From: a virus
Strand: one strand, 5' to 3'
Virus record (IMG/VR): IMGVR_UViG_3300010430_006923
Span: 1 to 36,926 of that record
Length of the DNA stretch: 36,926 bases
Shown one piece after another: positions 1 through 24,621 of the stretch (the stretch's first letter is position 1; each line of letters begins with the position of its first letter). The position numbers and the translations under genes are program-made. The notes under the pieces were generated by a model. The model saw nothing but the letters and a program-made list of their open reading frames with translations, was not told the origin of the DNA and did not search any database.

Positions 1-3000
1 CTAGGTTAGGGTGTTCCAGCTGCCGCTGTTCTTTCGCCACTCGAGGCTTCCGCCGTTTTCGCGGAAGTCGATGTCGACAATCCCGGAATCGTCGTAGCGC
101 AGGCGCACGTAGCCAGAGGCGAGCGTCCCCTCGAAGAGGTCGCCTTTCACGATATTGTCCGAAACGATGTCGCCCGCCGCGCTGATGTTCCCGTTGGCGC
201 GGACTTCCGAGGCCGCGTTGCGGAAAAAGTAGGTGTCGGTGCTTCCGACGTAGAGATTCGACGACACGAGCAACGAGTCTCCCGAAAGCGTCCGCAGTCG
301 CGAAGCCGCGTCCCGCGAGAAGCCAGCGTCCCGCGAGCTCCCCACGTAGAGAGTCGCAGCGACTTGCAGCGAGTCGTCGGTTTTCAAGATGCTTGCCGCG
401 TCCCGGTAGAGGTTGGCGTCTGTCCCCCACCATAGCTTGTGGTCCGTGTCCAGAGTCAGATCTCCGTTTTTCAGATCGAGCCCGCTATCGTCGAGGAACG
501 CGTAGGTGCCGAGAGACTCGCTCCCACCAGCGTAGAGCTCTATGCGCCCGGTAAAGTTTGTCGCGTCCGCGACCATGGCCTTGTCGGTTCGCATGGCGAT
601 TACCGGGCCGTTGGACCAGGGGGTGGTAGACCCGCCGTTGTGGCCGTGGGACCGGATGCGCATGATGTAGTCCGAGCTCCCGATCGCCGTCTTGCTGGCA
701 AAGGTTCCGTTGGCTTTGTCGAAATCCACCAGGTTCTGGTTGGCGATGGCGAGCGAACCGAACCCAGTCGGAGAGCCGTCACCATGCTGGGTGAAAACGC
801 CTCTAGCGATCGAGCTCGCAGCGCCCTCCCAAGTCTTTTTCGAAGCGTCGGTCGTAACGACAATATTGTTCCGGACGCTCAAAAGATTGTCGGTGCCGAT
901 CTCGACGTCTCCGAAGAACTTCGCGTTGCCTGTATCCCGCTCGATTGCCCATCCCACGCCGGTCGAAGCGTTGAAATTGTCGCTCTGGATGTCGGTCCCG
1001 AAGTTGATCGTCCCTACGGGAGCCTCGAAGTCGAGGGTCTGGGAGCCGCCGAAGGTGGCCTCGCTGATATGGTAGCGGCTGGACCAGTATTTCTTGGTGG
1101 TGTCGGTGATGACGACTTCGACGGGCACGATCTGCCAGTTGGCGGGCAGCCCGGTGAAGTCCCCGGTGGTGAAATTGTAGCTGGTGGCAGACGGCGTTGC
1201 GGGGGCGCTTGCCTGGCTGACCGTGTAGTAGACGATGCCGGTCGCGTTTCGCGGGCCGTCGGCTCCGTCCGAACCGTCGGCTCCGTCAGCCCCATCCGAG
1301 CCGGGATCCCCTTGAGCCCCCGTGGCGCCGGTCGCGCCCTGCGGACCCTGTGGCCCTGTGGCCCCGGTGGGGCCCGTGGGGCCTGTCGCGCCGGCGACTC
1401 CCTCGCCTGCCAGCACCCAGTCCACCTGGAAGTCGATTTCGGAATCCACGCCCGCGCTGGACCGGTAGATGACGGTACCAGAGACGGACAGCTTCTTGAC
1501 CCCGTCCGTGTGGGTGGCGAACCCGAGCTCGCCCGAAGCCCCGACCGAGGCGGCGCTGCCGCCCGTGTAGACAAGGCCGGACTTGTAGCGCCAGCGGTCG
1601 TTCGTGGGAGTGGCGTCGTAAGTCTTGAGGTCCGACCCGAGCAGGACGGAGGGGGTAATCGTCTTCCCCGCCGGATCGTAGTCGGAGTAGTCCGCGTTGA
1701 CGGTCTCGAAGTAGGCGGGGGAGAGCACGTTGAGCGCGGCGGAGACCGACAGCGGATCCACCGCGATCGACCCCACGTCGGCGGAGACGTTTTTGGCGTA
1801 GTCGACCGCCTCCACCCAGACATACCAGGTCGACCCGGCAGCTGCGGGCAGCGTTATCTCGCTCCCCCGGGTCCACTGGCTGGCGCTGGGCTTGGAGTCG
1901 GCGCTGTTCAGGTAGACTTTGTAGTGCCAGATGTCGTCTTCGGTAGGCGGGTCCCATTTCACGTGGACCGTGTCGTAGCCAGCGGTGACCACGACGCTGG
2001 TGGGCGCCTTGACGTATATGTCGTCAAAGGTGAACTCGTGGCCGGAGACCGTACCGATGTCGAGCCCGACTCCGAAATGGGTGAAGGACTGGATCTTGAA
2101 GTACCGGCTGGCAGCGGTGTAGGGGAAGTCCTCGTGGCGGAGGAACTCCAAGTCGGAGCGGAAGACGAGCCACGCTTCCGAGTCCAGGGCGTGAGCGGCT
2201 GCTTCGGAGCCTTTGCGCCCACGAAGCACGTGGAGGTTGAACGCGTCCCCAACCGCAGCCGTGATCGAGCCGACGGACATCACTTCGTCTCCCGCGATGA
2301 GCAGAAGGGTGTCGTCGGCGCGGGCCTCGTCGGTCTGGGAGATCAGCAGCCCGGTGTCGATCCCCTGCGGGGAGACCGGGAGGATGGACCCTCCGGCGGT
2401 AATGGCGGTGTCGAATGTGACGGACAGGGCGAAGCGCTTCAGCTTCCCAATCTCGGAGTAGGAGCCATCGTCGCTGGAGTAGTGCACCGCAGCGCGGGTC
2501 GTATGCTTGTCGGGACGGTCCGCCAGGAGGAAAACGGCGGGAAGGTTTCCGCCCCACGGCTTGGACGGCTGGAAGAAGCGGAAACTGGAAAACGCGGCTG
2601 GCTCGGGCGGCTTGAGGCTCGGGCGGGCCACCGGCTCGTAGGGGAGCGCCTTAGCCTGGATGCCGTGCTCCTGGACGAGGTGGATCACGTGCTCGAGCAG
2701 CCCGGGATCGTAGTCGATGCGCATGATGCGCGCCACCAGATCGAGCGACAGCGGGGAGTACTGAAGCCGGAACCGGGATCCCGGCCCGAGCGCGTTGGCG
2801 TCCAGCCACGAGGCGAGCACCGGGGCCTTGCCGCTGAATCTCGGCTTCGAGCGCTCCGCAAGGTAGCGCACCTTGTATTCGTCCGCCTGGTACTTGGTGA
2901 TGAAATTGGTCTTGTCGAGCGTCTCCTTGCGGATTTTCTGCGCCCGCTTCTTCGAGGCGAGGCTTCGGTGCTTGGCGGCGGTCTCCTTGAAGCCCTGGGC

Positions 3001-4101
3001 GCGGTCGACGTGCTTGACCGTCACCTGGTTGAGGACGTCCGACCACGGGTCCGGAGTCGGGTTGACGGGCCCCGTCAGGCTCTCAGCGTCCAGCACAGGC
3101 AGCCCTCCCGGCTCGGTGTCTGGGTGGTCGAAGTAGTCCAGCACCAGCTTGCCGCTCTCCACTTTCACGAACCCGTCGAAGTAGGAGAGCACGTTGGCCA
3201 CGTGGGCGGAAAGCGGCACCGCCCGGTTAAGCTTCGGCGCCTGGTGGCCCCAGGAAGCGGAGTGGCCCGAAGCGCCGGGCACGTCGATCGAGGACGCGCG
3301 GCGGATCAGCGGCGCGGTCGCCTTCCACGATGTTTCGTCCAGAAGCGAAAGCGCGTCCAGACCGGCGAGCGGATGGTCGAAGCAGTCGGCAAGGTGGAAG
3401 ACCGGGTTGCACCCCTCGTAAGTCAGCACGTTGGAGGGCTCGCCGCTCCAGGTCTGCGGCAGCGAGTCGAGCACTACCTCGATGCTCGGTACGGCGGTGC
3501 GCTCGAATCCGCAGAAGAGGTTGAGGATGACCAGCCGCACCTGCCCTCGGTAGGCCGGGTGGGTCGAGGACCCGCTCGCTGGCGGGTCGTAGTCGAGATC
3601 GTCTTCGGGCAGGTCGTCCGGATCGGCGTAGGGGATGCCGTCGCCCGGGATGTTGTGCTGGCTGGAGAGGCCGTCGATGTAGGGCACCAGCCTCGTGTCG
3701 GCTGCCTGGTCCATGGCGCCGGGTGCGAAGTAGAAGTCCCCCTGCCCGGCCACCAGTATCTCCAGCTCGCTGGAGCCCGAGAACTTGGCGGAACCCTCCC
3801 AGATGACCTGCTTGTCCTTTTTGATCTGCCGCACGTAGGTGGACTGCCCGCACTTGAGCAGGCCGATGACGTCCGCGAAAATGTTGTAGCCGATGACGGT
3901 GTCGTTCTTCTTAACGCTCTGGGTCACCGGCTCGCCCCGCTGCCGGTAGGCGTCGTCTATCCAGTGGACCGGGTAGAGCCGCGGACCGTGGCCGAACGGG
4001 AGGGAGATCCCCTCCTCGTTGGTGGCGATGTCGTCCCCGTCGATGTTGCCGATCTTCGGCTCGTCGACCGGATTGTAGGATGTCTCTGGCGTTCCTCCCA
4101 T
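1..4101 (-). CDS. Tail tip / host-specificity protein (gpJ-like) with collagen-like fibre
   Basis: This 1366-residue protein is the likely central tail-tip and receptor-binding protein. The N-terminal 500 residues resemble the gpJ/GTA gp15 class, including the segment NPVFHLADCFDHPLAG that matches the gpJ-type NPxxxxxD region. A fibronectin type III domain covers roughly residues 700-780 (VHVKWDPPTEDDIWHYKVY). A collagen-like Gly-X-Y run follows at about 895-950. The C-terminal 150 residues contain three fibre-like repeats built on LYVGS and RDAAS. It is the last gene of the tail operon, five bases after the NlpC/P60 gene, in the order hub, peptidase, gpJ. The ATG at 4101 starts the open frame and the TAG lies at the window edge, so the gene is complete. 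Role is inferred from order and motifs; the receptor is unknown. Confidence 0.85.
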   Translation of the reverse strand: MGGTPETSYNPVDEPKIGNIDGDDIATNEEGISLPFGHGPRLYPVHWIDDAYRQRGEPVTQSVKKNDTVIGYNIFADVIGLLKCGQSTYVRQIKKDKQVIWEGSAKFSGSSELEILVAGQGDFYFAPGAMDQAADTRLVPYIDGLSSQHNIPGDGIPYADPDDLPEDDLDYDPPASGSSTHPAYRGQVRLVILNLFCGFERTAVPSIEVVLDSLPQTWSGEPSNVLTYEGCNPVFHLADCFDHPLAGLDALSLLDETSWKATAPLIRRASSIDVPGASGHSASWGHQAPKLNRAVPLSAHVANVLSYFDGFVKVESGKLVLDYFDHPDTEPGGLPVLDAESLTGPVNPTPDPWSDVLNQVTVKHVDRAQGFKETAAKHRSLASKKRAQKIRKETLDKTNFITKYQADEYKVRYLAERSKPRFSGKAPVLASWLDANALGPGSRFRLQYSPLSLDLVARIMRIDYDPGLLEHVIHLVQEHGIQAKALPYEPVARPSLKPPEPAAFSSFRFFQPSKPWGGNLPAVFLLADRPDKHTTRAAVHYSSDDGSYSEIGKLKRFALSVTFDTAITAGGSILPVSPQGIDTGLLISQTDEARADDTLLLIAGDEVMSVGSITAAVGDAFNLHVLRGRKGSEAAAHALDSEAWLVFRSDLEFLRHEDFPYTAASRYFKIQSFTHFGVGLDIGTVSGHEFTFDDIYVKAPTSVVVTAGYDTVHVKWDPPTEDDIWHYKVYLNSADSKPSASQWTRGSEITLPAAAGSTWYVWVEAVDYAKNVSADVGSIAVDPLSVSAALNVLSPAYFETVNADYSDYDPAGKTITPSVLLGSDLKTYDATPTNDRWRYKSGLVYTGGSAASVGASGELGFATHTDGVKKLSVSGTVIYRSSAGVDSEIDFQVDWVLAGEGVAGATGPTGPTGATGPQGPQGATGATGAQGDPGSDGADGADGSDGADGPRNATGIVYYTVSQASAPATPSATSYNFTTGDFTGLPANWQIVPVEVVITDTTKKYWSSRYHISEATFGGSQTLDFEAPVGTINFGTDIQSDNFNASTGVGWAIERDTGNAKFFGDVEIGTDNLLSVRNNIVVTTDASKKTWEGAASSIARGVFTQHGDGSPTGFGSLAIANQNLVDFDKANGTFASKTAIGSSDYIMRIRSHGHNGGSTTPWSNGPVIAMRTDKAMVADATNFTGRIELYAGGSESLGTYAFLDDSGLDLKNGDLTLDTDHKLWWGTDANLYRDAASILKTDDSLQVAATLYVGSSRDAGFSRDAASRLRTLSGDSLLVSSNLYVGSTDTYFFRNAASEVRANGNISAAGDIVSDNIVKGDLFEGTLASGYVRLRYDDSGIVDIDFRENGGSLEWRKNSGSWNTLT

Positions 4102-4106
4102 GGCGT

Positions 4107-4589
4107 CTATGTCTCGAACGCCCGGTAGATCCGCTCCACGAGCCGGGCTTCCTGTCTTGTGTTGAGGGTTTCGACGACCACCCCCTTGTCGGATCGGGCG
4201 TGCAGGTAGGTCCTCCCCGCCAGCACCACGGCGGAGTGCGGAGGGCCCGGCCAGCGAATGCGGAGGATGTCCCCGATGCGCATCGTCTTCTGGGGCTGGG
4301 CCCGGTCGAAGTCGACCGCGGTCCAGCGGGCGAGTTCCGGAGAGCTCTCCAGAGCGGAAATGACGTAGCGGTCGAACCGCGAGGGCGTCCAGTCGAGGTG
4401 GTACTCCGGAAGATGGATTTCCGGCATGGCGCCGGACCGTTCCTGCAGGTAGTTGACCGCCCCCCAGCAGTCGATGCCGCCGGACGGGCCCGGATGGCGG
4501 GAGTTCTCCCGAAACGGGGTTCCCCGCAGCAGGGCCGCCGCGTTGAGCAGCGCGTGCATCGCAGATACGCTCTCGTAGAACGGCGTCAT
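4107..4589 (-). CDS. NlpC/P60 (C40) cell-wall peptidase, tail-associated
   Basis: A 160-residue C40-type cysteine peptidase expected to open peptidoglycan during DNA injection (lambda gpK / GTA gp14 class). The motif GGIDCWGAVNYL places the nucleophile at Cys41. PHSAVVLAG gives the catalytic His118, and His130 in TYLHARSDKGV is the likely third residue. The ATG overlaps the stop of the upstream hub gene (ATGA), and the same frame upstream is only the hub's shadow, which fixes the start. The position between a BR0599-type hub and a gpJ-like protein is the standard tail-tip order. No signal peptide is present, as expected for a virion component. It could also work in lysis, but nothing in the sequence requires that. 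Confidence 0.85.
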   Translation of the reverse strand: MTPFYESVSAMHALLNAAALLRGTPFRENSRHPGPSGGIDCWGAVNYLQERSGAMPEIHLPEYHLDWTPSRFDRYVISALESSPELARWTAVDFDRAQPQKTMRIGDILRIRWPGPPHSAVVLAGRTYLHARSDKGVVVETLNTRQEARLVERIYRAFET

Positions 4590-6364
4590 TTCTTCCCCGT
4601 CACGTTCGGGTGGTCGAAGCTCTTGAGCGTCAGATTCTCCCGGGCCCCTCTCGGATGCCCCTTGAAGTTGATGGCGTTGCCCAGATCTCCGCATCTCGGG
4701 TAGGTGCCGTTGCAGCCGGGCTTGAACGTCACGGAGTCGGAAACGGCCGCCGGGCTGAGGAGGGCCTCGTCGAGAGTCAGCACTTGCGTCCCGCTGCCGG
4801 GGGTGGAGGCCACGATTTCGCGGACCTGGTAGTCGTCGCCGTCCCCGTACTCGAGAACGCCGTCGACGAAATGCCCCGCTGCGTCGGCTGCCGCAGTGGA
4901 GACGGTGACGACGTTGGCGGAGATCGAGTCGATGGTGCCGGACTCCTCGAAGTCCCCTTCCACAAGCCCGCAGCCGGGCGAGAAGAGGTCTACCTTGCAG
5001 TCGGGCCCCAGGTCGAAGTCCCCGACCATCTGCTTGAGCAGGCCCCCGAAAAGCCTGACGGTCGCCACGAGCCTCCGCCCGGAGGGCTTCACCCGGTCCA
5101 CTTCTCCGGGAAGGATCAGCTGGAGCGTTCCGTCGGGGTCCGACGGGTCGCAGGTGTAGACCTCGCAGGTGAGCGGAGCTTGCAGCGGGCCGGGGAAGAA
5201 CCGCATGAGCGGGTTTCCGGCCTCCGCATGGGAGGCGATGTCCACCGACCCGTCGGCGAAGCGCTTCAGGTCGATCGACAGCTTTCCCGGCTCGATGAAT
5301 CCCGGAGTGTAGGGGACGCCCCCCGCCGTTATCGACTCGCTGGCGCTGGATAGGCCCACGACGACCGGCGTCGGGGAGAGGTAGGAAAACTTGTACAGCC
5401 ACACCTTTCGCGGGCGCTCGTAGGTCCGCTCCGGGGTGATCTCCCAGGGCAGCTGGATGAACTCCACGCTGGCCCGAGCCACGTCCCGGTTGGTGAAGGC
5501 CAGCCGCAGCCGCTCTTCGCTAAACCGGACCTTGGTCCCGTGCGGAGCGGTAGAGGTGGCAGTGCCGGGATTGTAGAAAGACGGCGAGGTGAACGCCTTC
5601 CAGGGGCCCTTCATCGAGGCCCAGAAGTTGACCAGTTCCCGTATCTGGCCATCCAGAACGTTGAGCCGGAACCCCTGGCCGTAGCGGAACGCCGCTTCCT
5701 GGTTTTCCACCGCCTTCTCGACCCGGGACCCGTAGGATACCGTCTTCTCGCCGATGTCGTAGGACTCCTCGACAGACTCCACCTTGTTGAGCGAGACCGG
5801 CCACGAGGCCGCCAGCGAGTCGTCGACCGCGAGGACGCGCATCGAGTCCGGCGCGTCGTCGTCGATGACCAGCCGGTAGACGGCCTCCTTGCGGTTGGAG
5901 TCGATGACTTCCGCCTCCTCCACTTTCGCCAGGCGCCCGAAGTGCAGCGGGCAGCTGGTCGGGTGAGTGGTCGGAGTGGCTCCCGTGGCCACTTCGTGCA
6001 CCGTATGCGAGGACGGGTCGGACTTGTCGTAGTTGAGAGCGTAGGACGGGGCGAAACGCCGATTCGCGTCAAAGTCCGCCGCCGCCCACGCATCGCAGTA
6101 CATCGGCACCGCAATCCGCTCGGAAGCGTAGCCCGCCAGGAACTCCCGCATTTCCTGGGCAGCGTCCCCCTTGACTAGAATGGCTATATGAACGAAGAGC
6201 CGGAGCCCGGAATCGTTCGGAGAACGATCCTCGGCCCGGGTCTCCGACTCTGTAAAGTTGGTATACGAGAAAAGGTCCACATTCTGCGGACGCTCCCAGT
6301 GGTGCGGGAACCGCAGCACCTTCACCGCCTCGCCCTCGACTGAGACTGTGTGTATCCACGCCAT
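4586..6364 (-). CDS. Tail hub protein, BR0599/GTA gp13-like, four-cysteine C-terminus
   Basis: This 592-residue protein matches the hub position of gene-transfer-agent-type tails, next to the NlpC/P60 peptidase. Its C-terminal third has the BR0599/phiJL001 Gp84 pattern: two cysteine pairs (Cys456/Cys465 in DCKVDLFSPGCG and Cys551/Cys558 in PGCNGTYPRCGD) followed by NAINFKGHP. The homologous GTA hub is known to bind an iron-sulfur cluster, so these four cysteines are plausible ligands. The N-terminal 300 residues appear to be an extra domain, so it may combine two proteins that are separate in GTAs (DUF2460- and DUF2163-like). The ATG at 6364 follows a six-base gap after the coiled-coil membrane gene. 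Family assignment is good; the N-terminal domain is uncertain. Confidence 0.75.
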   Translation of the reverse strand: MAWIHTVSVEGEAVKVLRFPHHWERPQNVDLFSYTNFTESETRAEDRSPNDSGLRLFVHIAILVKGDAAQEMREFLAGYASERIAVPMYCDAWAAADFDANRRFAPSYALNYDKSDPSSHTVHEVATGATPTTHPTSCPLHFGRLAKVEEAEVIDSNRKEAVYRLVIDDDAPDSMRVLAVDDSLAASWPVSLNKVESVEESYDIGEKTVSYGSRVEKAVENQEAAFRYGQGFRLNVLDGQIRELVNFWASMKGPWKAFTSPSFYNPGTATSTAPHGTKVRFSEERLRLAFTNRDVARASVEFIQLPWEITPERTYERPRKVWLYKFSYLSPTPVVVGLSSASESITAGGVPYTPGFIEPGKLSIDLKRFADGSVDIASHAEAGNPLMRFFPGPLQAPLTCEVYTCDPSDPDGTLQLILPGEVDRVKPSGRRLVATVRLFGGLLKQMVGDFDLGPDCKVDLFSPGCGLVEGDFEESGTIDSISANVVTVSTAAADAAGHFVDGVLEYGDGDDYQVREIVASTPGSGTQVLTLDEALLSPAAVSDSVTFKPGCNGTYPRCGDLGNAINFKGHPRGARENLTLKSFDHPNVTGKK

Positions 6365-6370
6365 GGGTAT

Positions 6371-6844
6371 CTAGCCGTCCCCCTCGTAGCTGCCTTTGTA
6401 GAACTCGCGCACGAAGGCGCGGAACTCCTGCTTGAAGTCGCGTATGTCCACCTTGAGCTCCGTCATGTTGTTGCTCAGGTTGTTGAGCGCCCCTTGCGTC
6501 ACGGCGATCTGGGCCTCGAAACGCTCGTCTGTCACCACCTCGCTTTTCGGGTAGTGCTGCGAGTGGTCGGCCTGGTGGGTCGTCACGAGCGTATTCACTT
6601 TCTGGAACTGGGTAGCCGTAGCGACATTCTCCTTGCGCTTGTCGTAGAAGTACCCGCCCTCGTACTTGCTCAGGAACTCCTCATGGGCCTTCTCGTAGAT
6701 CTCGCTCGAAATCTCGGTCGCGATCTTGCGGGCGATCTCCTCGATGTCTCCGCTCTGGTAGTCGCGCCACTCGCGCCAGCCGGTGAAGAGCGTTATCAGC
6801 CCGACCCCCACGGCGAGCCACTTGGTTAGCGTGTTGTCCGTCAT
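6371..6844 (-). CDS. Membrane-anchored coiled-coil protein, possible lysis factor
   Basis: A 157-residue protein of unknown family. It has one N-terminal membrane segment (about residues 6-22, KWLAVGVGLITLFTGW) followed by a long charged, heptad-like region and a short GSYEGDG tail. I chose ATG 6844 (MTDNTL), one base after the stop of the upstream gene, rather than a TTG five codons earlier. It is the last of three overlapping small membrane-protein genes between the fibre genes and the tail hub. An inner-membrane anchor with a coiled coil is the layout of an i-spanin, but holin or assembly roles are equally open. No sequence motif decides this. Confidence 0.65.
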   Translation of the reverse strand: MTDNTLTKWLAVGVGLITLFTGWREWRDYQSGDIEEIARKIATEISSEIYEKAHEEFLSKYEGGYFYDKRKENVATATQFQKVNTLVTTHQADHSQHYPKSEVVTDERFEAQIAVTQGALNNLSNNMTELKVDIRDFKQEFRAFVREFYKGSYEGDG

Positions 6845-6845
6845 C

Positions 6846-7301
6846 TCATTTCTGCCCAAAAGGCGTAAAGTAGAAGCCCACTGCGAGGGCTCCGATGTTG
6901 AGCGCGGTCAACGCGAGGTATCCAGTCGTGAGGATGACCGTCGTCTCCTTGGTTGCGGGTAGCTTGACGAGACCCCAAAAGAACGTGAATCCCTGTTTCA
7001 TTTCCGGAAGCAAAAAAGTCGTGAACTGCTTTTCCGGATACACGATGCCATAGGCGCCCATGAAGCAGATCATGGATACGAGCATGATCGCCAGAATCCT
7101 CCGCGTGAACGCGCTGCTCTTGGCCGTTCTCGACCCCTGGAAGACCGCCCGCTGGAAGGCGACCGCGTCCTGGCGGTTGGCCCCCACTTCGGCCAGCTTG
7201 CGGCGGCTCCGCTCCTGGGCAATGCCCGCGACGATCTTGAGCATCGAGCCGAAACCCGCACTCCCTGCTACCGAGAATAGGGATACGAGCAGCTCAGCCA
7301 C
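6846..7301 (-). CDS. Multi-pass membrane protein, holin candidate
   Basis: A 151-residue protein with two clear membrane segments, at about 69-88 (ILAIMLVSMICFMGAYGIVY) and 122-146 (VILTTGYLALTALNIGALAVGF). A third, weaker hydrophobic helix lies at the N-terminus (LLVSLFSVAGSAGFGS). A basic, soluble stretch (residues 29-66) lies between. The size and three-segment layout recall the 3-TM holins next to tail genes in gene transfer agents, but I see no diagnostic motif. The start is GTG at 7301, preceded by the purine-rich AAGGGGGGCCAAGG, and overlaps the upstream small gene by eight bases. Middle gene of a three-gene membrane cluster. Confidence 0.65.
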   Translation of the reverse strand: MAELLVSLFSVAGSAGFGSMLKIVAGIAQERSRRKLAEVGANRQDAVAFQRAVFQGSRTAKSSAFTRRILAIMLVSMICFMGAYGIVYPEKQFTTFLLPEMKQGFTFFWGLVKLPATKETTVILTTGYLALTALNIGALAVGFYFTPFGQK

Positions 7302-7512
7302 TGCCTTGGCCCCCCTTTACCTGCACGCTCTGCACCGTCTTGGCGGTCAGCGTGCCGAGGATTAGAAGCACGTCCTCGATCGAGATCGGCTCCATGGCGT
7401 CGTTGACCCAAGAAGTGCGGACCCAGACTGTGAGCCAGCAAACGAGCACCAGCACCACGCAGGAGCGCAGCAGCCCGGTCTTTCCATCCTTGTCTTTGAG
7501 CGGATTCGTCAT
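7294..7512 (-). CDS. Small single-pass membrane protein
   Basis: A 72-residue protein with one strong membrane segment at about residues 15-32 (LLRSCVVLVLVCWLTVWV) and a short polar C-terminus rich in Gly and Ser. I chose ATG 7512 (MTNPLK), two bases after the stop of the beta-helix gene; a TTG two codons upstream would overlap that stop. It overlaps the next membrane gene by eight bases, so the two are probably translationally coupled. Small size and membrane topology fit a holin, antiholin or export helper. The neighbouring signal-peptide-bearing genes make an export-related role worth considering. Unknown family. Confidence 0.6.
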   Translation of the reverse strand: MTNPLKDKDGKTGLLRSCVVLVLVCWLTVWVRTSWVNDAMEPISIEDVLLILGTLTAKTVQSVQVKGGQGSG

Positions 7513-7514
7513 GC

Positions 7515-9371
7515 TCAATTCAAAGTCGCCTTGACCCTCCCCGAGTCGTCGGTCTTCAGAGTGGCTTTGGCCCGCCCGGTGGCGTCACTCTTGAGCGGGC
7601 TGGACGGAGGGGAGGAGGTCAGCGTTGCTGTGACGACGGGCGTCTTGCTTGCCCGCAGCGCAAATGCTTTGGCCGTCACGTCTCCGCTGCTGATCGTCGC
7701 TTCGTAGGGGGCTTCGTTGTCAACGGTGTGTGGGATTTTGTCTACAAAAAACACCACCCAGCGAGTATCGCCGTCTGGATTGACTTCATAGTCGTTGCCG
7801 TCCTGCGAAATGGTCGCTTCGGTGAGCGGGACGTGATCCGCTGGATACGCCCCGATGTCGGGGGTTGCGTCATCCCCATAGTAAACTAGATCGTCGTCTT
7901 CCCAAGAGAGCTCCGAATCTACCGTGATTCTGTCGCCACTGATCGACACGATTCTACGCACGTCCGTGCCGATGGTGATCGTGTCACCCAATATAAGGTT
8001 TCCGCCGTATTGATCAATCGCGGTATTGTCCCCCCTGAAGAATCCGGCGTCGTCAACATCAAAGCTAGTACCAGTGCCAGACGTTTCGTTTACCGCCGTC
8101 AAAGCGACCGCGTTGTCCGTAGCATTCGAAGACGCGCCGAGAGTGAAATCGTCGCCAGCCACGTCGTTGAAATCAGGGTCGGCATTGTCCTGCGAGGTTA
8201 CTTGGTCTATCCACCGGCTTATTACCGTATCAAAAGTAATCGGGCCGTCTGGATCATAGGCTAGGTTCCCGTTGATGAAAACGCTCCCCTCGCTGTAATA
8301 GACTTCGACATTGGTCGACTGCGATGTCCCCCACGACTCGTACTCGATATTGTTGAAAATGTGGGTGTTGTTTACGCCCGTGGTGATTAGGACCAGCCCT
8401 CTATCCTGCGTAGGGGCTCCGCGCAGCAACTCTATCGAGTCATTGTGATACCACCGAGTATAGCTGATGTCGCCCTCGAAAGCCTGATTGATGCTCGCAG
8501 AAGAGCCCGTGTTGTGCCAGATGTTCCCCCGGAAGATGTTTTCCGTCATTGGCCCGCCGCCCGCGACCGAATTGCTTATGTTTGTCGGGTGCTCGTCCGG
8601 CTCACTTGCGCCGGTGCCCTCCTGAAACGTCGCCTCGAATAGATTGTACTCCAAGCCAAGACTGGAAGAGCCCGACTGGAACACGTCCGAGTGCCCGCCC
8701 TCATCCTCGCTCAACCTGACCGTGTAGTTGTTCAGGAAGCGATTTCGGTCGCCCTTTATTGTCATGGCGTCGGGCAGAATATAGTCGAATGTATTGTGAG
8801 CGACGATGTTATCGACACCGCTAATGTTGACCCCGACCGCGCTGCCGCTGCCCCCTAGTCCGATGTCTATAAATGTATTGCCAATGATGAGACAATTATT
8901 GAGCACGTCGCTCGACCCCTGCCGGATGCCGTTCACCCTACCGTGCGTAGCAATGTTGTTCCAGATCTCCAGATAGGAGCAGGTGCCCGTAGTCAGTATA
9001 TTCGCCTGCTCCTGCGTGCCCGATGTGTCCCCGTCCGCATAGGCGTCTATCGTAAACCCGATTATGCGGATGTAGTGCATATTGGTGAGCGTCCAAGTGT
9101 CCGTCACCGCCACGCCATCGGCTACAAAGGTTATGGGGTTGCCAGCAGTTCCGGTCACCGCTGGCGTGACGTTCTCGACAAAGGTGCCCGCCTGAACGCG
9201 GATGGTGTCACCCGCTGCAACATTGTCCGCAGCGTAGTCGACATTTCGCCACGCTCCGCCGCTTGAGTTGGTCGTCCCCGCATTCCCGTTGTCGCCATCC
9301 GTCCGGACATAGTAAGTAGTTTGCGCGTACAACGAGCTGGCAAGTATTAGGTATAAAATTACAGATCTCAT
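7515..9371 (-). CDS. Right-handed parallel beta-helix protein with Sec signal peptide
   Basis: A 618-residue beta-helix protein in the tail-fibre position. It begins with a textbook type I signal peptide, MRSVILYLILASSLYA, probably cut before QTTYYV. The next part (TYYVRTDGDNGNAGT, GDTIRVQAGTFVENV) is the entry motif of pectate-lyase-like beta-helices (chondroitinase B / PL6 and DUF1565-like proteins). Many short strands rich in Asn and Ile follow (NNIATHG, NTFIDIG, NNYTVRL). The C-terminus has two copies of an 11-residue unit, LKSDATGRAKA and LKTDDSGRVKA. It may be a receptor-binding or polysaccharide-degrading spike, or a protein truly secreted during infection. The start overlaps the previous stop by one base. 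GC is lower than in the head genes. Catalytic residues cannot be assigned. Confidence 0.75.
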   Translation of the reverse strand: MRSVILYLILASSLYAQTTYYVRTDGDNGNAGTTNSSGGAWRNVDYAADNVAAGDTIRVQAGTFVENVTPAVTGTAGNPITFVADGVAVTDTWTLTNMHYIRIIGFTIDAYADGDTSGTQEQANILTTGTCSYLEIWNNIATHGRVNGIRQGSSDVLNNCLIIGNTFIDIGLGGSGSAVGVNISGVDNIVAHNTFDYILPDAMTIKGDRNRFLNNYTVRLSEDEGGHSDVFQSGSSSLGLEYNLFEATFQEGTGASEPDEHPTNISNSVAGGGPMTENIFRGNIWHNTGSSASINQAFEGDISYTRWYHNDSIELLRGAPTQDRGLVLITTGVNNTHIFNNIEYESWGTSQSTNVEVYYSEGSVFINGNLAYDPDGPITFDTVISRWIDQVTSQDNADPDFNDVAGDDFTLGASSNATDNAVALTAVNETSGTGTSFDVDDAGFFRGDNTAIDQYGGNLILGDTITIGTDVRRIVSISGDRITVDSELSWEDDDLVYYGDDATPDIGAYPADHVPLTEATISQDGNDYEVNPDGDTRWVVFFVDKIPHTVDNEAPYEATISSGDVTAKAFALRASKTPVVTATLTSSPPSSPLKSDATGRAKATLKTDDSGRVKATLN

Positions 9372-10003
9372 CAGTTCGAGTAGAGTCGCAGTCTAAATGG
9401 CAGATTAGAACCGTCCGAAGACCAAGGCCCGACGCCGTTCGCATCGTAGGCCAGCCGGTCTGAGGCATCGCCCCCGTTTGTGTATTCCCAATGCACGTAG
9501 TTGCCCGAATCCGCAGCGTCCGCATGGATGACGACCCAGTAGGTCGTAGCGTCGGAAAGCACGGCAGATATGCCCGTAAATTCGACCCACTCAAACGTGC
9601 TGCCGATCGTGCTCGCGTCCACCGCATCGCTCGCCGTCCCCACCAGCGATCCGGGTTCACCCGAACTGTCGTCGTAAATCGAGACCGTTAGGTCTTGAGT
9701 AGGTGAGCCGACCGATTTTAAGGAGAGTTCGACTTTACAGACAGTGTAAGCGCTGGTCGTATCAATGTTCCCAGCCCGGTATTGATAAAATGAATGCGAG
9801 CCGACGTTGCCTTGCGAGGTGCCCGTATTCTCCTCGGAGTCCTGCGCGGTAGAGCAGCCTCCGCCCGCGCTAGCGATCGTTTGACCTCCGATTTCCGAGT
9901 ATCCTGTCAGATCGAGAGTCGAGGTCGCTATTCCCCCAATCTCGTCAATGTCCGCGAAGAGCGGCAAGGCGAGAGCCGCCCAAATCAGTATCAGCTTTCT
10001 CAT
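9371..10003 (-). CDS. Secreted jelly-roll-like protein (choice-of-anchor R type)
   Basis: A 210-residue protein with a clear signal peptide, MRKLILIWAALALPLFA, cut before DIDEIGG. The mature part has alternating beta strands ending in LTVSIYDDSSGEPGSLVG and DATTYWVVIHADAADSGN. This is the pattern of the choice-of-anchor R family and related carbohydrate-binding-like beta sandwiches of secreted bacterial proteins. Two cysteines (CSTAQ, TVCKV) could form a disulfide in an oxidising compartment. It sits between two other signal-peptide-bearing genes and overlaps each by a single base (TAATG, TGATG), so the three are co-translated. It might be a fibre tip or chaperone of the beta-helix protein; the biochemical role is unknown. 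Confidence 0.7.
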   Translation of the reverse strand: MRKLILIWAALALPLFADIDEIGGIATSTLDLTGYSEIGGQTIASAGGGCSTAQDSEENTGTSQGNVGSHSFYQYRAGNIDTTSAYTVCKVELSLKSVGSPTQDLTVSIYDDSSGEPGSLVGTASDAVDASTIGSTFEWVEFTGISAVLSDATTYWVVIHADAADSGNYVHWEYTNGGDASDRLAYDANGVGPWSSDGSNLPFRLRLYSN

Positions 10004-10986
10004 TACTCTACGGTTAATTCAAGCTTTCCGAAGTCGACGAAGATCACGTCGTCCGTAATGGCGAGGCCAATTTCCTTCACCGTGTCGGTACTGGTACTGG
10101 GAGCGGTTGCGGTTATCGCCCCCGGCGTGTCGCCCATGTAGAGCCTTTGGCCCGCCGTCCATGCCCATGCGTCGTTGCGCACGAAGCCTTCCCGGATGAT
10201 CGATATCGGGTTGCCGTCCGTTGTGGCCGCCGTCGCTAGGCCGAAGGCGAGCCGCGTGCCGGACCCGTCGGCATCCGCAAGCAGAAACTCGCCTGCCGTG
10301 CCGTCGAAGTAGACCACCTCCCATTGGGCGATGGTAGCCCCCCCGTTGAGCCCATCTAAGGTCGCGCCCGAGTAGCTGTCGTCAGCGTCCAGCGGTTCGC
10401 CCGCCGTCTCGCTTGCGGAATAGGAGAGGTTGAGCGAGTCGGCCTTGCCCAGCACGTAGTCAGCCAGCTCGGATGCGTCGATTTTTTTAAGCACCCCTGA
10501 GTCGTCATACACAAACTCGTCGTCGTCGTCGGGCACGCCGTCCGCGGTCTGGCCGGTGATGTCGGAGCTTGAAAAGGCCGATCCTGTAACCGCAGACCAC
10601 CTCGGATTCGCCCCGGAGCCCTGCGTCTCCAGATAGTGGCCGCTAGTGCCCGGAATCAAAGGTATCCAGTCGGTGCCGTCAAAATACATGATGTCCCCTT
10701 GGGTGGCAGTCATGCTCTTGATGTCCTCAAGGTAGGCATGGAAGCCCTGAACCGTCGTCCCAATGGCGGAAAGGTCGATCTTCAGATCCAGGGCCGCCTG
10801 CTGGGCCGTCGACACCGGCTTGCTGGCGTCGGAGGTGTTGTCGAGGTTGCTGTCTGCGACAATTCCGCTACCGCCAAGAAGCTCGTCGAAGGTGTCGATC
10901 CGGGATCGCGTTATGAGATCCTGTTCCGCAGTCTGCCCGAAGGCGAGCGTCGCCAGGAACGGCAAAAGGAGTATTAGCTTTTTCAT
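10003..10986 (-). CDS. Tail-fibre-like protein with Sec signal peptide
   Basis: A 327-residue protein that combines a Sec signal peptide (MKKLILLLPFLATLAFG, cut before QTAEQD) with typical phage fibre sequence. SDASKPVSTAQQAALDLK is the linker repeat of many tail fibres. GDIMYFDGTDWIPLIPG and later GQRLYMGDTPGAIT occur in fibre and decoration proteins. No catalytic motif is visible. The first three codons (MKK) and hydrophobic core leave little doubt about the signal. The ATG overlaps the stop of the upstream gene (ATGA). It is first of the secreted trio. Either the signal is used, sending a fibre-like protein to the periplasm or cell surface, or it is a hydrophobic anchor removed during assembly. 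Confidence 0.75.
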   Translation of the reverse strand: MKKLILLLPFLATLAFGQTAEQDLITRSRIDTFDELLGGSGIVADSNLDNTSDASKPVSTAQQAALDLKIDLSAIGTTVQGFHAYLEDIKSMTATQGDIMYFDGTDWIPLIPGTSGHYLETQGSGANPRWSAVTGSAFSSSDITGQTADGVPDDDDEFVYDDSGVLKKIDASELADYVLGKADSLNLSYSASETAGEPLDADDSYSGATLDGLNGGATIAQWEVVYFDGTAGEFLLADADGSGTRLAFGLATAATTDGNPISIIREGFVRNDAWAWTAGQRLYMGDTPGAITATAPSTSTDTVKEIGLAITDDVIFVDFGKLELTVE

Positions 10987-11294
10987 GTTATGGTGTAATT
11001 GGAGGCGTGCGTCTCCAGGTCTGCTATGGTTAGAGTTTCGTTGGTCAGGGCCGTGTTGAGCGCGGCTCCGTCCGCCAGGTTGAAAGTGGTCGCGTCGAAG
11101 AAGACGAAGTTGGACATGGCGTTGAACTGGGCGTCCGGGATCGCGTTCAGGTTCTGGACGCGGATCAGCTCTGACTGGTAGTTGTCCCAGGTGAGTTGCG
11201 TTTCCGCTACCGCCGGCGCCGCGAAGCGCACCGGCTCGTCTACCTCCGAAACCGGGCTTTCGAAAACCTGCAGTATGGCCGGGACGAGGATCAT
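10983..11294 (-). CDS. Hypothetical tail-region protein
   Basis: A 103-residue protein that I do not recognise. It is mostly polar and alpha-helical in look, with the stretch ELIRVQNLNAIPDAQFNAMSNFVFFDATTF and a C-terminus rich in Thr, Asn and Ala. It has no signal peptide or membrane segment. It overlaps its upstream neighbour by four bases and is itself overlapped by four bases by the signal-peptide-bearing fibre gene, so it belongs to the tail operon. The position between tape measure and fibres suggests a small tail or fibre-attachment protein. Confidence 0.65.
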   Translation of the reverse strand: MILVPAILQVFESPVSEVDEPVRFAAPAVAETQLTWDNYQSELIRVQNLNAIPDAQFNAMSNFVFFDATTFNLADGAALNTALTNETLTIADLETHASNYTIT

Positions 11295-11602
11295 TTGCGC
11301 AGGGCGGTGGAGAGGGTCACGTCCAGCGTGGTGCCTCCGGCGAGCGTCTTGGTCTCGATCTGGATGTCGAACCCGCGCTCGACTAGGAGGTTCTCGAAGT
11401 CGTCACCGGTGTAGGTCTTGATGAGGTGCCAATTCCCGTTGAGGATGGCCCCGTTTCCGTCCACCGCGCCGACAGAGACTTCCACGGATCCGCCGGACCC
11501 GGTGAGGCCGGTTATCAGGATCGACGACGTCCCGCCGGGATTGCGGTAGCGCTTGGCGGTGTTCTCCGCCGACTGGTTGAAAATTACGTTTGCTGCTGAC
11601 AT
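11291..11602 (-). CDS. Hypothetical tail protein following the tape measure
   Basis: A 103-residue protein of unknown family. The sequence has strand-forming segments (SSILITGLTGSGGSVEVSVGAV, FDIQIETKTLAGGTTLDVTL), so a small beta-sandwich is likely. It is the first gene after the tape measure, 19 bases downstream of its stop. This is the place of lambda gpM-like or distal tail proteins in other phages, but I see no motif linking it to them. The leader before ATG 11602 (AATACCAAT) has no Shine-Dalgarno sequence, as for several other late genes here. Confidence 0.65.
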   Translation of the reverse strand: MSAANVIFNQSAENTAKRYRNPGGTSSILITGLTGSGGSVEVSVGAVDGNGAILNGNWHLIKTYTGDDFENLLVERGFDIQIETKTLAGGTTLDVTLSTALRK

Positions 11603-11621: not shown

Positions 11622-13835
11622 TTACACGCCGAAGAGCTCGGCCCGGTTGTTGCGGACGATGTCCATGATTCTCGCCTCGTCGTCGCTCAGGGCGGCGGCC
11701 CGCTGGGCCGTTCGCCGGTCGTCGACGATGATGGGCAGCCGGGATGCCCCGGAGCCGGTTCCGGCCCGCTGGGGGGCCTCGGCCACGAGCCCTCCGGAGA
11801 AGTAGCCGGGCAGCTGCTTGCGGCGGCGGATCTCGTCCAGAGACGCCACCCCCACCGTGCGCACGGTGGCCGCGTCGAGCACGTACTCCCCACGGTGGAC
11901 GATCCCCGCCGGCTCGTACTTGCCCCCGGGGCCCGTGTATCCGCCTTTGGCGAACGAGGACGCCGCGAAAGCGAAGAGGGCGGAAAGCGCCGCCAGTCCG
12001 GCGATCGCCGCAATGCCGAAACTGGCCCCGGACGCGGCGGCAGCAGCCGGAGCGTAGGCGGCAGCGTCCGCAGCGCCCTTGGCCTTGTTCTCGATCGTGT
12101 CGGCAGCTTTGGCCGCTTTCGATGCGGCGCGCTGCTTGGCCAGATTCTGGACGAAGGCGATGGTCTGGTCTCCCAGAGCGGTGGTCACCCGGTTGCGGAT
12201 CACGTCCGATATGCCGGTGAAGATTCCCGAAAGCCCCCGCGCCTTTCCTGCCACCACGTCCACCGCGCCGCCCACTCCCGTGCGGAGGGAATCCTCCAGC
12301 ACGCTGGTCTGGGCAGTGGCCCCGGCAAGGGCCCCTCCCACGTCGGGAGAATCGCCGTCGCCGGGGGCGGAGCCGACAGTGGACGGGTCGAAACCCTGCC
12401 CTTGCGGGCCGAGCTCCCCGGCTGCGTCACGCGCGGCCACGTATTCATCGATTAGCGACACGAGCTTCTCGGTAGCGGACTGGCCGTCCTCGGTGGACAA
12501 GGTCAGGTCCTTCTGCACTCCGAGCATTTCCCGGAGCTTGTCGGAGCCGGTGTCGATGAGTGTAAGCATTTGACTGCGGACAGCCGTCATCTTCTCGGTG
12601 ACTTGCGCGTGGGCTTCCTCGAGAGTGATCGCCTTGGCTACTTCCGCATTCCCTAACTCAACTCGCTTCAACGCGAGCTCAGGTAGCGGATCAAGGCCAA
12701 TCGTGGATCTTACTTTATTGGATACCGCAACTAGCCTATTGTATCCATCTTCTAAATGCCCAAAGAGCAAATTGATCGGTGTCGTAGCTACTCGAAGCAA
12801 TGAGTTTAGAAGTTTCTGCTCAAATACGTCGATCTCAGAGTATGATTTAAGCATCACAGCTCCCAGAAAATCCACAAACACTCCAACACGGTTTAGAATA
12901 GCCTTCAGGAAGACGCTCCCAAGAGTAATGAAACCCTCCGTGTAGCGGCCCGGGTTGGTCAGCTCGCTGGCGAAGTCCTTCATCACGCTTTGCGTCGCCC
13001 GGGTCCCCTGCTCGAAGCCCGCCTGCAAGACGAGGGAGATGAGGTTGAGGATCGTGCCGTCCTTGAACGACTGGAAAGAGAGGTTGATGAAGGCGCCGAT
13101 GCGCTGGCCCACCTGGGTGAAGTCGAAATTGTTGAGCCGCTCCAGCGGCGCCGAGAGAGAGCTGCCTATCTGGTCGATCACCCCGGCGAAGAGCTGCCGG
13201 GACTTGGTCTCGAACCGGCCCACCAGCGTGTTGATGCGCTCGAAGAGCACCGCGTTTCTCTCCAGCACGGTCGGGTACTCGCCCAGCGCCTTGGCCGCGT
13301 CGGAAAACGCTTCCTTGTTCTCGAACAGGGCGAAGAGCTCGCCCGCGCTCGTGTCCAGAAGATCCATCGCGGCCCGGGTTTTGATGGTCTGGTCCTCGGT
13401 ATTGGCCAGGGCTTCGGCCACCACCTGGAAGCGGTCGAACTTGCTCAGCCCGACCAGGTCGGACGGGTTCAGGTTGATCGACTCCAGGGACTTGCGGTAG
13501 GAGTTGTTGCCCTCGGTGGCGATCTGCGTCCGGCGGGTCAGCCGGTCCAGGGTGATGCCCACCGAGTTGGCGGAGGCACCGTTGTCCTTGAAGGCCCGGC
13601 GCATGAGCAGCAGGTCCGAGACGGTCTCCCCCGTGCGCCGGTTGAGATGCAGCATTTGCGACCCCAGGGAGATGATGTCCTTGCTGCCGCCGATGGCCTG
13701 CCGAACGCTAGCGTACGCGCCCACGAGGCCGATGAGCCCGGTGGCCAGCCTGCCGACGCCGCGAATCGCCCCCTGGATGCCGCGCATCTTGGAGTTGAGG
13801 GCTATGAGGACGTCTACTTTGGATTGGGTGGCCAT
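11622..13835 (-). CDS. Tail tape measure protein
   Basis: A 737-residue tape measure protein that sets tail length and is ejected during infection. Evidence is its length and place directly after the two-frame chaperone genes. It has long helical, Ala-rich stretches and hydrophobic segments near residues 25-45 and 590-625. The C-terminal signature [23 protein letters not shown] lies at about 625-650, as in many siphovirus tape measures. By the usual relation of about 0.15 nm per residue the tail would be roughly 110 nm. Residues about 300-395 come from a markedly lower-GC segment (about 12640-12940), a sign of an exchanged module. The leader has no Shine-Dalgarno site. Confidence 0.88.
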
Positions 13836-22132: not shown

Positions 22133-24061
22133 CTATTTAAACATCTCCAATTGGTTCCCCTGCCGGTGCGGAGGGGTCGCCGGCTTCTTGCGAGGCTTCG
22201 GCTTCGGCGGGCGCGATTCTGGCGAGGCGGATTCCTTTTCACTCTCGTCTTCCGACGGGTCGAACATCGGCAGAATCTTGCTCATCAGAGCCACGACGAT
22301 CTGCATGGCCTCGCAGTCCCAGCGATGGTTGGGCCGCTTCCCCTTCTGCACCCAGCGCTTTCGCCGGCGCTTGGATATCTTCTCGACCACGGTCACAAGC
22401 CGTTCGGAGTCCATCTCAGCGAGATACTCTGGAGAGATGTCCGACGCCACCAGCCAACGCGGGCCCATGCCCCGGCGGAACCGGTGTAGGATCGACTTGA
22501 CTACGTAGTTCGACCAGTGCCGGAACTCGACCGCCGTCCGCTTCTGGCCGCGCTTCCCCTTCAGCGGGTCCGCACGCTTCTTCGGCGAGTACGGGAGCAT
22601 GATCGCCTCCCGCTTCGCCCCCACCCGCTTGAAATGCGGGTAGCTGTCCTTGTTTCCGTCCCCAATCAGGACCCGCCAGCCGTACTGGTTGGCGATCGGG
22701 AGGATGCGGGTGTACAGATTGTCGCCGCCGTCGATGAAGACGTTTCGCGAGTGGATCCTCTGGTCGATCTGCCATTTCCGCGCCTCCTGGTGGGAGTCGA
22801 AGCGGCCCTCGTAGTAGAGGCGCGAGTCACCGGTGCCGTCCTTGGCCCAGCAGCGGCAGACGGCAATCAGGTGCTCGGTGTCGTCGCCGGAGCCCTCCTG
22901 GTAGTCGAAGACGAGAATCTTGTAGTGGGGCTCCTCCCACTCATCGAGCATTCTGAAATTCGACTTGTGGAGGACCACCTCCTCTTCCGCGTAGTCGTCT
23001 TTCCAGTACTTGCAGGCCTGCTGCATGTAGAAGTTCTGCAGCGGCTCGATGTTTCCCTTGTCGCGCTTGTTGAGGGCGAGCACGTACTTCCGGGCGATCT
23101 TCCCGAAAGCCCCTCCCACGATCGAGGTCCAGCGGAACGTCTTCTCGATGGGGGACGCCTCCGGATTCTCCACCACGTAGCGGCCGGTCTCGTTGAAGTA
23201 GCGCTTGGTGGTAGGATCGTCCTTGTGGAGATGCCCGCAGTGGGGGCACTTGAACGCCGCTGTCCGCTCCGCGTGGTCGTAGTCGCGGTCGCCGTTCGGC
23301 AGGGACTTCTTCTCGTAGAAGAGACCTGCGTACTCCCTTTCGTCGTCCTCCATTCTCAGGAAGACCTCGAGCGGCATCACCTTCCCGCAATCCTCGCACG
23401 GGGCGCTCCAGACGTGCCGACGGGCCGCCATGGCGATGTCATGCCAGGCGTCGTCCTCGTGGCTCGCCTGGGAGGTGAAGACGATCTTGCAAATCTCTTT
23501 GTAGAACTCGGTGCGGTTGCGGGCCTGGTCGATCACCTTCGGGGCCCATCGCCAGATCTCGTCGCCGACGATGTTGACGATCGACTTCGACTGCACAGAC
23601 CCCTCGTTCGCCCCGGCCACCCACAGCTCCATGTGGGGGAAGCGGTAGTGCTGCCGCACCTTTCGCTTCTGAGCGTAGAGCTTCGCGTGCGGGCCGTTCT
23701 CGAAGCACTTCTCGATGCGGCTGTTCCAGTGCTCCTTAGCGTCGTCGTCCGAGTGGAAGATCATCATCGTCGGGTTCGGAGCCTCCGCAAACAGCCACTG
23801 GATGAAGATGTCAGCGCCCAGCGAGCCCCCAGTCTGCACCGACTTCTCCACGTTGATCTGCCGCGTGTCGTAGTCGCGGTAGGCCTTGAAAACGTCGATC
23901 AAATGCCGCGAGTAGCCCACGTCGAACCACCCCGGGATTCCGTAGGCCCCGTCCTTCGGCAGGTTCACATTGTCGCTCGCCCAGTCGTAGATCTCCCGCC
24001 TGTCAGCAGGCTGCCATCCCGCCCGGTAGGCGCCGCACATGTCTGGATCCGGGCCTAGCAT
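22133..24061 (-). CDS. Terminase large subunit, GpA family
   Basis: A 642-residue DNA-packaging ATPase and nuclease of the lambda GpA type. VEKSVQTGGS (71-80) is the lambda-style Walker A in which the lysine comes early (Lys73), as in lambda KSARVGYSK. IVNIVGDEIW (161-170) is Walker B with Asp167-Glu168. The zinc-binding pairs CEDC (222-225) and CPHC (272-275) are typical of the family. VFIDGGDN and NHRWDCEAM supply nuclease acidic residues. I chose ATG 24061 (MLGPDP), seven bases into the small-subunit gene, over a TTG at 24094. The C-terminus is a basic, Pro-rich tail. The GpA type suggests cos packaging. Confidence 0.9.
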   Translation of the reverse strand: MLGPDPDMCGAYRAGWQPADRREIYDWASDNVNLPKDGAYGIPGWFDVGYSRHLIDVFKAYRDYDTRQINVEKSVQTGGSLGADIFIQWLFAEAPNPTMMIFHSDDDAKEHWNSRIEKCFENGPHAKLYAQKRKVRQHYRFPHMELWVAGANEGSVQSKSIVNIVGDEIWRWAPKVIDQARNRTEFYKEICKIVFTSQASHEDDAWHDIAMAARRHVWSAPCEDCGKVMPLEVFLRMEDDEREYAGLFYEKKSLPNGDRDYDHAERTAAFKCPHCGHLHKDDPTTKRYFNETGRYVVENPEASPIEKTFRWTSIVGGAFGKIARKYVLALNKRDKGNIEPLQNFYMQQACKYWKDDYAEEEVVLHKSNFRMLDEWEEPHYKILVFDYQEGSGDDTEHLIAVCRCWAKDGTGDSRLYYEGRFDSHQEARKWQIDQRIHSRNVFIDGGDNLYTRILPIANQYGWRVLIGDGNKDSYPHFKRVGAKREAIMLPYSPKKRADPLKGKRGQKRTAVEFRHWSNYVVKSILHRFRRGMGPRWLVASDISPEYLAEMDSERLVTVVEKISKRRRKRWVQKGKRPNHRWDCEAMQIVVALMSKILPMFDPSEDESEKESASPESRPPKPKPRKKPATPPHRQGNQLEMFK

Positions 24062-24621
24062 AGCTTTTTCACCGCCGACTGGAACTCCCCGCAAATCTCG
24101 TCATAGAGGTTCGCCCCCAGCTCTCTCAATTCCCGCTTCGTCTTCCGCTCCGCAATCTCAGGAAACCGCTTCTCCAATGCGGTCCTCAGTATCCGGCTCT
24201 GCACTTCGCTCAACGCCCGAAGCGTCATCCGCAGCTCGTCGCGCTTCAAATACTGCCCTTCCGACACCTCATTATCAAACCGCCGCTTCCGCAGCTGCTC
24301 GCGCTTGATGTCCAGGTCAAGCTTCTCCGACTCGCTGACCCCCTCCAGATCCAGATCCGTCACGTCGATGAACTTCTCAAGATCTTCCAAGTAGACCCGG
24401 GATCCGCGAAACGCCGTACACCCCTTCTTCTTCGCCAGCTTCAGAATCGACAACGGAAGCCCCACCATCGAAGCCGCCGCCTCCATCGAGTCCGCGTACT
24501 CCGGCCGCTTCGACTCAGCCTCGTATTCCGCCAGACGCTTGGACTCCCCTTCCGAAAGCTCCGCCCCTCCATTGCTTTTCGCAATGATCGCAGCGACATC
24601 CGGTGGAATCTCCTCACTCAT
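24055..24621 (-). CDS. Terminase small subunit, Nu1-like
   Basis: A 188-residue DNA-recognition subunit. A winged-helix-like N-terminal domain spans about residues 43-85 (YADSMEAAASMVGLPLSILKLAKKKG, FRGSRVYLEDLEKFI). The linker LDIKREQLRKRRFDNEVSEGQYLKRDEL is the typical Nu1/DUF1441 dimerisation region, followed by a helical domain that binds the large subunit. Its stop lies inside the start region of the large-subunit gene. ATG 24621 is preceded by TTGAGGAATAG, a plausible Shine-Dalgarno site with long spacing. Confidence 0.82.
   Translation of the reverse strand: MSEEIPPDVAAIIAKSNGGAELSEGESKRLAEYEAESKRPEYADSMEAAASMVGLPLSILKLAKKKGCTAFRGSRVYLEDLEKFIDVTDLDLEGVSESEKLDLDIKREQLRKRRFDNEVSEGQYLKRDELRMTLRALSEVQSRILRTALEKRFPEIAERKTKRELRELGANLYDEICGEFQSAVKKLC

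Follow-up and report, generated by a model that had tools for sequence, protein, structure and literature searches.

Particles of tailed phages are taught as wholly cytoplasmic products. The coat proteins of filamentous phages are virion proteins made with signals for the general secretory (Sec) pathway. In Bdellovibrio, the mosaic adhesive trimer (MAT) fibres are trimers resembling phage tail fibres; they come after a signal peptide and have their action outside the cytoplasm (PMC10769870). In Bacteroidota, a small residue followed by Gln at the signal cut is known as the Q-rule (PMC5837995, PMC10653852), which the first of these sources describes as Bacteroidetes-specific. Here we describe three consecutive genes, SP1, SP2 and SP3, in the tail region of the IMG/VR record IMGVR_UViG_3300010430_006923 (36,926 bases; this whole stretch is referred to as the window). 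The window belongs to a siphophage whose structural genes lie on the minus strand, and each of the three proteins begins with a predicted Sec signal peptide.

Predicted signal peptides of SP1, SP2 and SP3

We observed that the N-termini of all three proteins have a basic n-region, an uncharged hydrophobic core and small residues at -3/-1. They were scored with a rule-based Sec predictor, which had been checked on nine known E. coli signals, and appear to be of the textbook Sec/signal-peptidase-I type. All three scored well, and nothing comparable was seen at other gene starts among the structural genes of the window. The sole other match at a start site was a weak one (score 3.76), in a 74-residue transmembrane protein; a Met inside the tape measure protein scored as well. 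The predictor does give some doubtful positives, such as portal-like proteins of some Verrucomicrobiota prophages. In three of these prophages the portal-like protein encoded just downstream of the terminase (L138, L144, L161) has a signal-like start that ends in P[KQ]AWA followed by SPYDAA.

We further estimated how often such N-termini arise by chance. Shuffled versions of the N-terminal 46 residues passed the predictor in 0.6%, 1.2% and 0.08% of trials (SP1, SP2 and SP3, respectively), and the base rate of passes over 1242 phage open reading frames was 2.1%. Three signals in a row would be expected by chance at about 1e-5 per position. Chance hydrophobic N-termini were ruled out by the shuffles and the base rate, and the Sec signals that the first-pass annotation had seen on all three consecutive proteins were thus confirmed.

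The same annotation had placed three genes here, each overlapping the next by one base; the positions agree (Table 1), all on the minus strand, and the overlaps were found as TAATG and TGATG. SP1 in turn overlaps the gene before it by four bases. In each of the three frames, the gene starts at the earliest start codon. Since codons 15-70 of SP1, SP2 and SP3 contain neither an ATG nor a GTG or TTG start with a Shine-Dalgarno match of at least 4 bases, a leaderless form of any of them is unlikely, and wrong start codons or dual starts were ruled out on the same grounds. The first 21 nucleotides of SP1 (10986-10966) and SP2 (10003-9983) are identical at 17 positions, which may reflect a duplication or an exchange of the signal segment.

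Domains of the proteins and similar gene runs in other phages

The first-pass annotation had described fibre repeats in one of the three proteins, a jelly roll in another and a beta-helix in the third. We observed that the fibre motif of SP1, NTSDxxKPVSTAQQ, is present, but as one copy together with a Phage_cement_2 domain and not as repeats. The latter region (residues 217-311) also matches the neck fibre gp82N (PDB 8keg, E 4e-5), and fibritins, tail fibres and decoration proteins are among the phage proteins that SP1 matches. By these virion-type domains SP1 is a true fibre protein; its relatives L002-L007 are cement-type proteins without signals. The supposed jelly roll of SP2 corresponds to the choice_anch_R domain, and SP2 additionally matches one PHROG of unknown function. 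SP3 matched no family. It may be a beta-helix, of which the one sign is a surplus of Asn-ladder signatures (23, compared with 11.9 in shuffled sequences; P 0.004). Family searches gave no match of SP2 or SP3 to known virion families, and none of the three proteins matched the S74 chaperone domain. AlphaFold, run without an alignment, gave no usable model of SP1 or SP3. Among the viral contigs and phages searched, neither SP2, SP3 nor the hub protein had a close homologue, and one weak match of SP2 (E 0.04) was seen.

The arrangement itself recurs. In Bacteroidota-type and Verrucomicrobiota phages, two to five signal-bearing genes for fibres, spikes or lyases stand in succession, mostly between tail genes and holin-like genes. 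A scan with the fibre motif covered 80 loci and gave clear signals at the fibre start in two (L097 and L100). A second scan, made with the L097 fibre, covered 80 further loci, 72 of them with complete open reading frames; signals were seen in 6 of the 72, most of the six in runs. Two signal-bearing genes stand together in L097/L176, L177, L204 and L255, and four in L211 (beta-helix, polysaccharide lyase 14, beta-helix and long fibre), with further pairs in L203, L204, L216, L217 and L219. Adjacent signal-bearing pairs made up 7 of 1084 gene pairs, against about 0.5 expected. Among 286 Verrucomicrobiota genomes of one bacterial class, seven had a match to SP1, three of these with signals on the fibre. 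The signal-bearing loci from Verrucomicrobiota were L271 (one gene), L273 and L280 (two each, in one genome) and L276 (two, a spike-like protein and a fibre that share a C-terminal domain). Bacteroidota genomes searched with the fibre alignment gave one weak match. In the literature searched, which was covered in part, we came across no account of tailed-phage fibre arrays with signal peptides, nor any description of the wider pattern.

Some loci deserve separate mention. The long fibre at L204:531-5048 starts with about 50 mostly basic residues, followed by a signal-like segment ending in KLPKKRETLSLFLLLVCSIAFA before QFPS; this is possibly a delayed signal that simple predictors miss, and the fibre starts of L189 and L218 resemble it. 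At L211:712-5492, three consecutive signal-bearing proteins share about V[KR][DH]LPxA within the first ten residues after the cut, perhaps a common docking peptide. In the cultured Bdellovibrio phage phi1422, gp68 (L302:3848-5692) is a signal-bearing protein encoded between a tail fibre and a membrane protein; the host genus is known for signal-bearing fibre-like adhesins.

The evidence that such proteins are found in virions comes from Cellulophaga phages, and rests on tandem mass spectrometry (MS/MS) annotation in the phage records. Ten signal-bearing proteins are annotated in this way as virion proteins, namely gp091-gp094 of phi10:1, gp101-gp104 of phi19:1 and gp25-gp26 of phi39:1. They are not all independent, since gp102 of phi19:1 and gp093 of phi10:1 are 97% identical. 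A further signal-bearing protein, gp095 of phi10:1, carries no MS/MS note, and the roughly 30 other MS/MS-supported virion proteins checked in the three phages have no signals. Like the cassette of the window, the signal-bearing genes follow the tape measure gene and precede membrane genes. In two other Cellulophaga phages, phi18:1 and phi46:1, no fibre carries a signal. The first-pass annotation had started from the premise that virion proteins normally lack signal peptides; given the ten proteins, this premise fails for the class.

These annotations bear on the possibility that the proteins are exported but are not parts of the virion. They might instead be a secreted adhesin or depolymerase set, acting in the periplasm, on the surface of the infected cell or, once lysis has occurred, in free form; such a set might degrade capsule, block receptors against other phages or keep progeny off debris. 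The signals look functional, lyase and beta-helix domains do occur in the class, and the genes adjoin holin-like genes. For the secreted Q-rule proteins encoded by Porphyromonas phages, modification of the host surface has been proposed (PMC10367356). SP2 and SP3 match no known virion family. However, domains of virion type occur in SP1, MS/MS annotation counts ten class members as virion proteins in three phages, and the 5.5 kb upstream of the signal-bearing fibre of L177 showed no second fibre. We regard a purely secreted set as possible, though rather unlikely. Coat degradation, as suggested by the first-pass annotation, is a plausible role for class members with lyase or beta-helix domains; a role away from the particle would be hypothetical.

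We also examined the predicted cut sites. A small residue followed by Gln was found within residues 13-28 in 30/34 class members, compared with 11% of windows in their mature parts; the P value (about 1e-24) is only a guide, because the 34 proteins were gathered by hand and are not phylogenetically independent. Gln is at +1 in SP1 and SP3, and Asp in SP2. This cut recurs as expected of real signal peptidase I substrates. Export of SP1-SP3 and their class is well supported at the sequence level and likely, a step in which we have considerable confidence. The cut also bears on a reading in which the hydrophobic N-terminus does not serve export and is merely signal-like, being kept on the protein as a peg for docking, or to anchor the trimer, within a virion assembled in the cytoplasm. 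Such a peg would account for presence in the virion without export, and the three portal-like proteins mentioned above, virion proteins without known export, score as signal-like in the crude predictor. A peg, however, needs neither a basic start nor the small-residue/Gln cut, and the related fibres L183, L214 and mumin9-3 gp063 start without such an N-terminus. We therefore consider it improbable.

The host of the window phage is most likely a Verrucomicrobiota bacterium, since 23 of the 24 terminase relatives in bacterial genomes lie in Verrucomicrobiota and distant ones are found in the Verrucomicrobia phage P8625. This would place the host outside the Bacteroidota, to which the Q-rule refers. 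In the Verrucomicrobiota-type set, a small residue followed by Gln was at the cut in 7/10. Host habit was considered as the source; about a quarter of crude signal calls in two Verrucomicrobiota genomes had [small]Q in range, against the 7/10 of the phage fibres, a small sample that makes the difference only suggestive. The bias may reflect shared signal modules or a use for an N-terminal Gln.

Locus layout, nearest relatives and the proposed assembly route

The late operon runs from the terminase through the tape measure gene, two 103-residue genes, SP1-SP2-SP3, three small membrane-type genes and the hub gene to an NlpC-like and a J-like gene (Table 1). The J-like gene ends exactly at base 1 of the record, which may have been cut or opened there.

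Table 1. Features of the SP1-SP3 locus and its surroundings in the window
Feature	Position	Strand	Remarks
SP1, 327 residues: predicted Sec signal, tail-fibre motif, Phage_cement_2/neck-fibre domain	10003..10986	-	
SP1 signal peptide MKKLILLLPFLATLAFG	10936..10986	-	predicted cut before Gln18 (MKKLILLLPFLATLAFG, then Q)
SP1 residues 45-77, tail-fibre motif NTSDASKPVSTAQQAALDLK	10756..10854	-	PHROG tail fiber phrog_35419, E 7.6e-8
SP1 residues 217-311, Phage_cement_2	10054..10338	-	26.4 bits, cut-off 24
SP2, 210 residues: predicted Sec signal, choice-of-anchor R domain	9371..10003	-	
SP2 signal peptide MRKLILIWAALALPLFA	9953..10003	-	predicted cut before Asp18 (MRKLILIWAALALPLFA, then D)
SP2 residues 70-206, choice_anch_R domain	9386..9796	-	NCBIfam NF041539, E 1.7e-12
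SP3, 618 residues: predicted Sec signal, beta-helix-like region (residues about 40-385), matchless C-terminal part	7515..9371	-	
SP3 signal peptide MRSVILYLILASSLYA	9324..9371	-	predicted cut before Gln17 (MRSVILYLILASSLYA, then Q)
Terminase	22133-24094	-	
Tape measure protein	11622..13835	-	marks tail module upstream of the cassette
103-residue gene	11291..11602	-	coupled to next gene; no signal, no family
103-residue gene directly upstream of SP1	10983..11294	-	coupled to SP1 via ATGA; no signal, no family
74-residue protein, one membrane span, directly after SP3	7294..7518	-	putative lysis-module candidate
151-residue multi-span protein	6846..7301	-	possibly holin-like (by eye; compare P8625 gp28)
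162-residue protein, one putative N-terminal membrane span	6371..6859	-	
Baseplate hub protein, TIGR02218/Phage_BR0599-like	4586..6364	-	tail module resumes here
J-like tail tip protein, collagen repeats, no signal	1..4101	-	candidate non-exported fibre of the window phage

Together, these observations lead us to lean towards a reading in which the members of the class are virion fibres, exported through Sec, cut, and added to the particles outside the cytoplasm. The first-pass annotation had proposed export of an adhesin or depolymerase set or, alternatively, decoration of virions outside the cytoplasm. Its Sec export agrees with the small-residue/Gln cut, and decoration is the alternative that fits best with the virion domains of SP1 and the ten Cellulophaga proteins. 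In this scheme, fibre- and spike-type proteins would be produced late, co-translated with the tail genes, and carried by Sec into the periplasm. Signal peptidase I would then cut the signal, usually leaving an N-terminal Gln, and the mature proteins would take up their fold outside the cytoplasm. Virion completion would end with their attachment, at lysis or later, to particles put together in the cytoplasm, on which they would act as receptor-binding or glycan-degrading appendages. Tailspikes of P22 can join finished particles late. Cleavage, periplasmic folding, attachment outside the cytoplasm and the presence of SP1-SP3 in the particle of the window phage are the predicted parts of this scheme.

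Several points weigh against decoration of virions by exported fibres. The fibres of P8625 carry no signals. In L163, a Puniceicoccales genome with a tape measure protein 35% identical to that of the window, the order is tape measure, hub, NlpC and J, with nothing between. The window phage already has a J-like fibre without a signal, and most of the sampled fibres are without one (signals in 6/72 and 2/80 loci). Secreted proteins that adhere to debris or vesicles could be picked up in MS/MS of purified phage, and the cleavage of the virion forms is a prediction. The window proteins are without close homologues, so that what is drawn from the Cellulophaga phages is drawn by class.

Because the nearest relatives, P8625 and L163, are without the SP1-SP3 cassette, the cassette appears to be an insertion relative to the L163-type layout and the trait appears sporadic. 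In a distant relative of the window phage, a 105-residue signal-bearing protein of fn3-like look is encoded directly after the fibre (L046:9997-10314). The first-pass annotation had made its reading depend on whether homologues lack the signal, and here the evidence is divided: the nearest phages lack the cassette and the searches gave no close homologue for SP2 or SP3, but the one homologous pair compared, the L097 and L177 fibres (50% identical), keeps the signal.

A sporadic cassette that is missing from the nearest relatives would also suit the capture of bacterial secreted adhesin genes, either Bdellovibrio MAT-like or secreted host proteins, with the signal a relic and the genes ordinary cargo. 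Bdellovibrio does have chromosomal signal-bearing fibres of phage type, and choice_anch_R is a generic anchor-type domain. Relic cargo, however, fits poorly with the tight translational coupling within the late tail operon, with similar positions in unrelated phages, with a signal retained at 50% identity and with the MS/MS annotation of class members as virion proteins, and we think it quite unlikely.

For exported virion fibres, a wider form can be stated, which we hold to be evenly poised. Some tailed phages of diderm bacteria would have a periplasmic assembly branch, with Sec-exported and cut fibres or spikes whose first residue is often Gln, cyclised in hosts that have the enzyme, and that fold outside the cytoplasm and are added at lysis; the route would be common to phages of several phyla. 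If the export signals on virion fibres do work, a part of the tailed-phage particle is made in the periplasm. This would bear on the folding of receptor-binding proteins, the timing of their activity, the handling of lysed debris and the expression of fibres for use. The combination of signal peptide, Gln at the cut and fibre operon also provides a sequence mark for finding host-range proteins in Bacteroidota and Verrucomicrobiota phages.

Comparison with known systems

The class shares with ordinary tail fibres and tailspikes (PHROG tail fiber, P22 tailspike type) the fibre motif, the beta-helix or lyase domains and the place in the late tail operon; those proteins, however, are made and assembled without a Sec signal. 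Filamentous phages are an unrelated virus type, with assembly at the inner membrane and extrusion without lysis.

The Q-rule proteins of Porphyromonas gingivalis phages are likewise phage-encoded and have a signal with Gln at the cut. They differ in being proposed modifiers of the host surface, and the accessible part of the source does not describe them as fibre arrays or virion proteins (PMC10367356). The MAT fibres of Bdellovibrio offer, by analogy, a precedent for phage-type trimeric fibres made with signal peptides and acting outside the cytoplasm. Unlike SP1-SP3, they are chromosomal and lie outside a phage tail operon. They are defined by a domain of ~130 residues after the signal, often with S74.

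The Cellulophaga phages differ from the window phage in their Bacteroidota host, their records are silent on signals, and the one pair compared with SP3 gave no sequence similarity. They are alike in having consecutive fibre or pectate-lyase genes with Sec signals in phi10:1 (gp091-gp095), phi19:1 (gp101-gp104) and phi39:1 (gp25-gp26), 10/11 of them annotated as virion proteins. As these phages are in culture and MS/MS identifications already exist, they make the idea of periplasmic assembly testable now.

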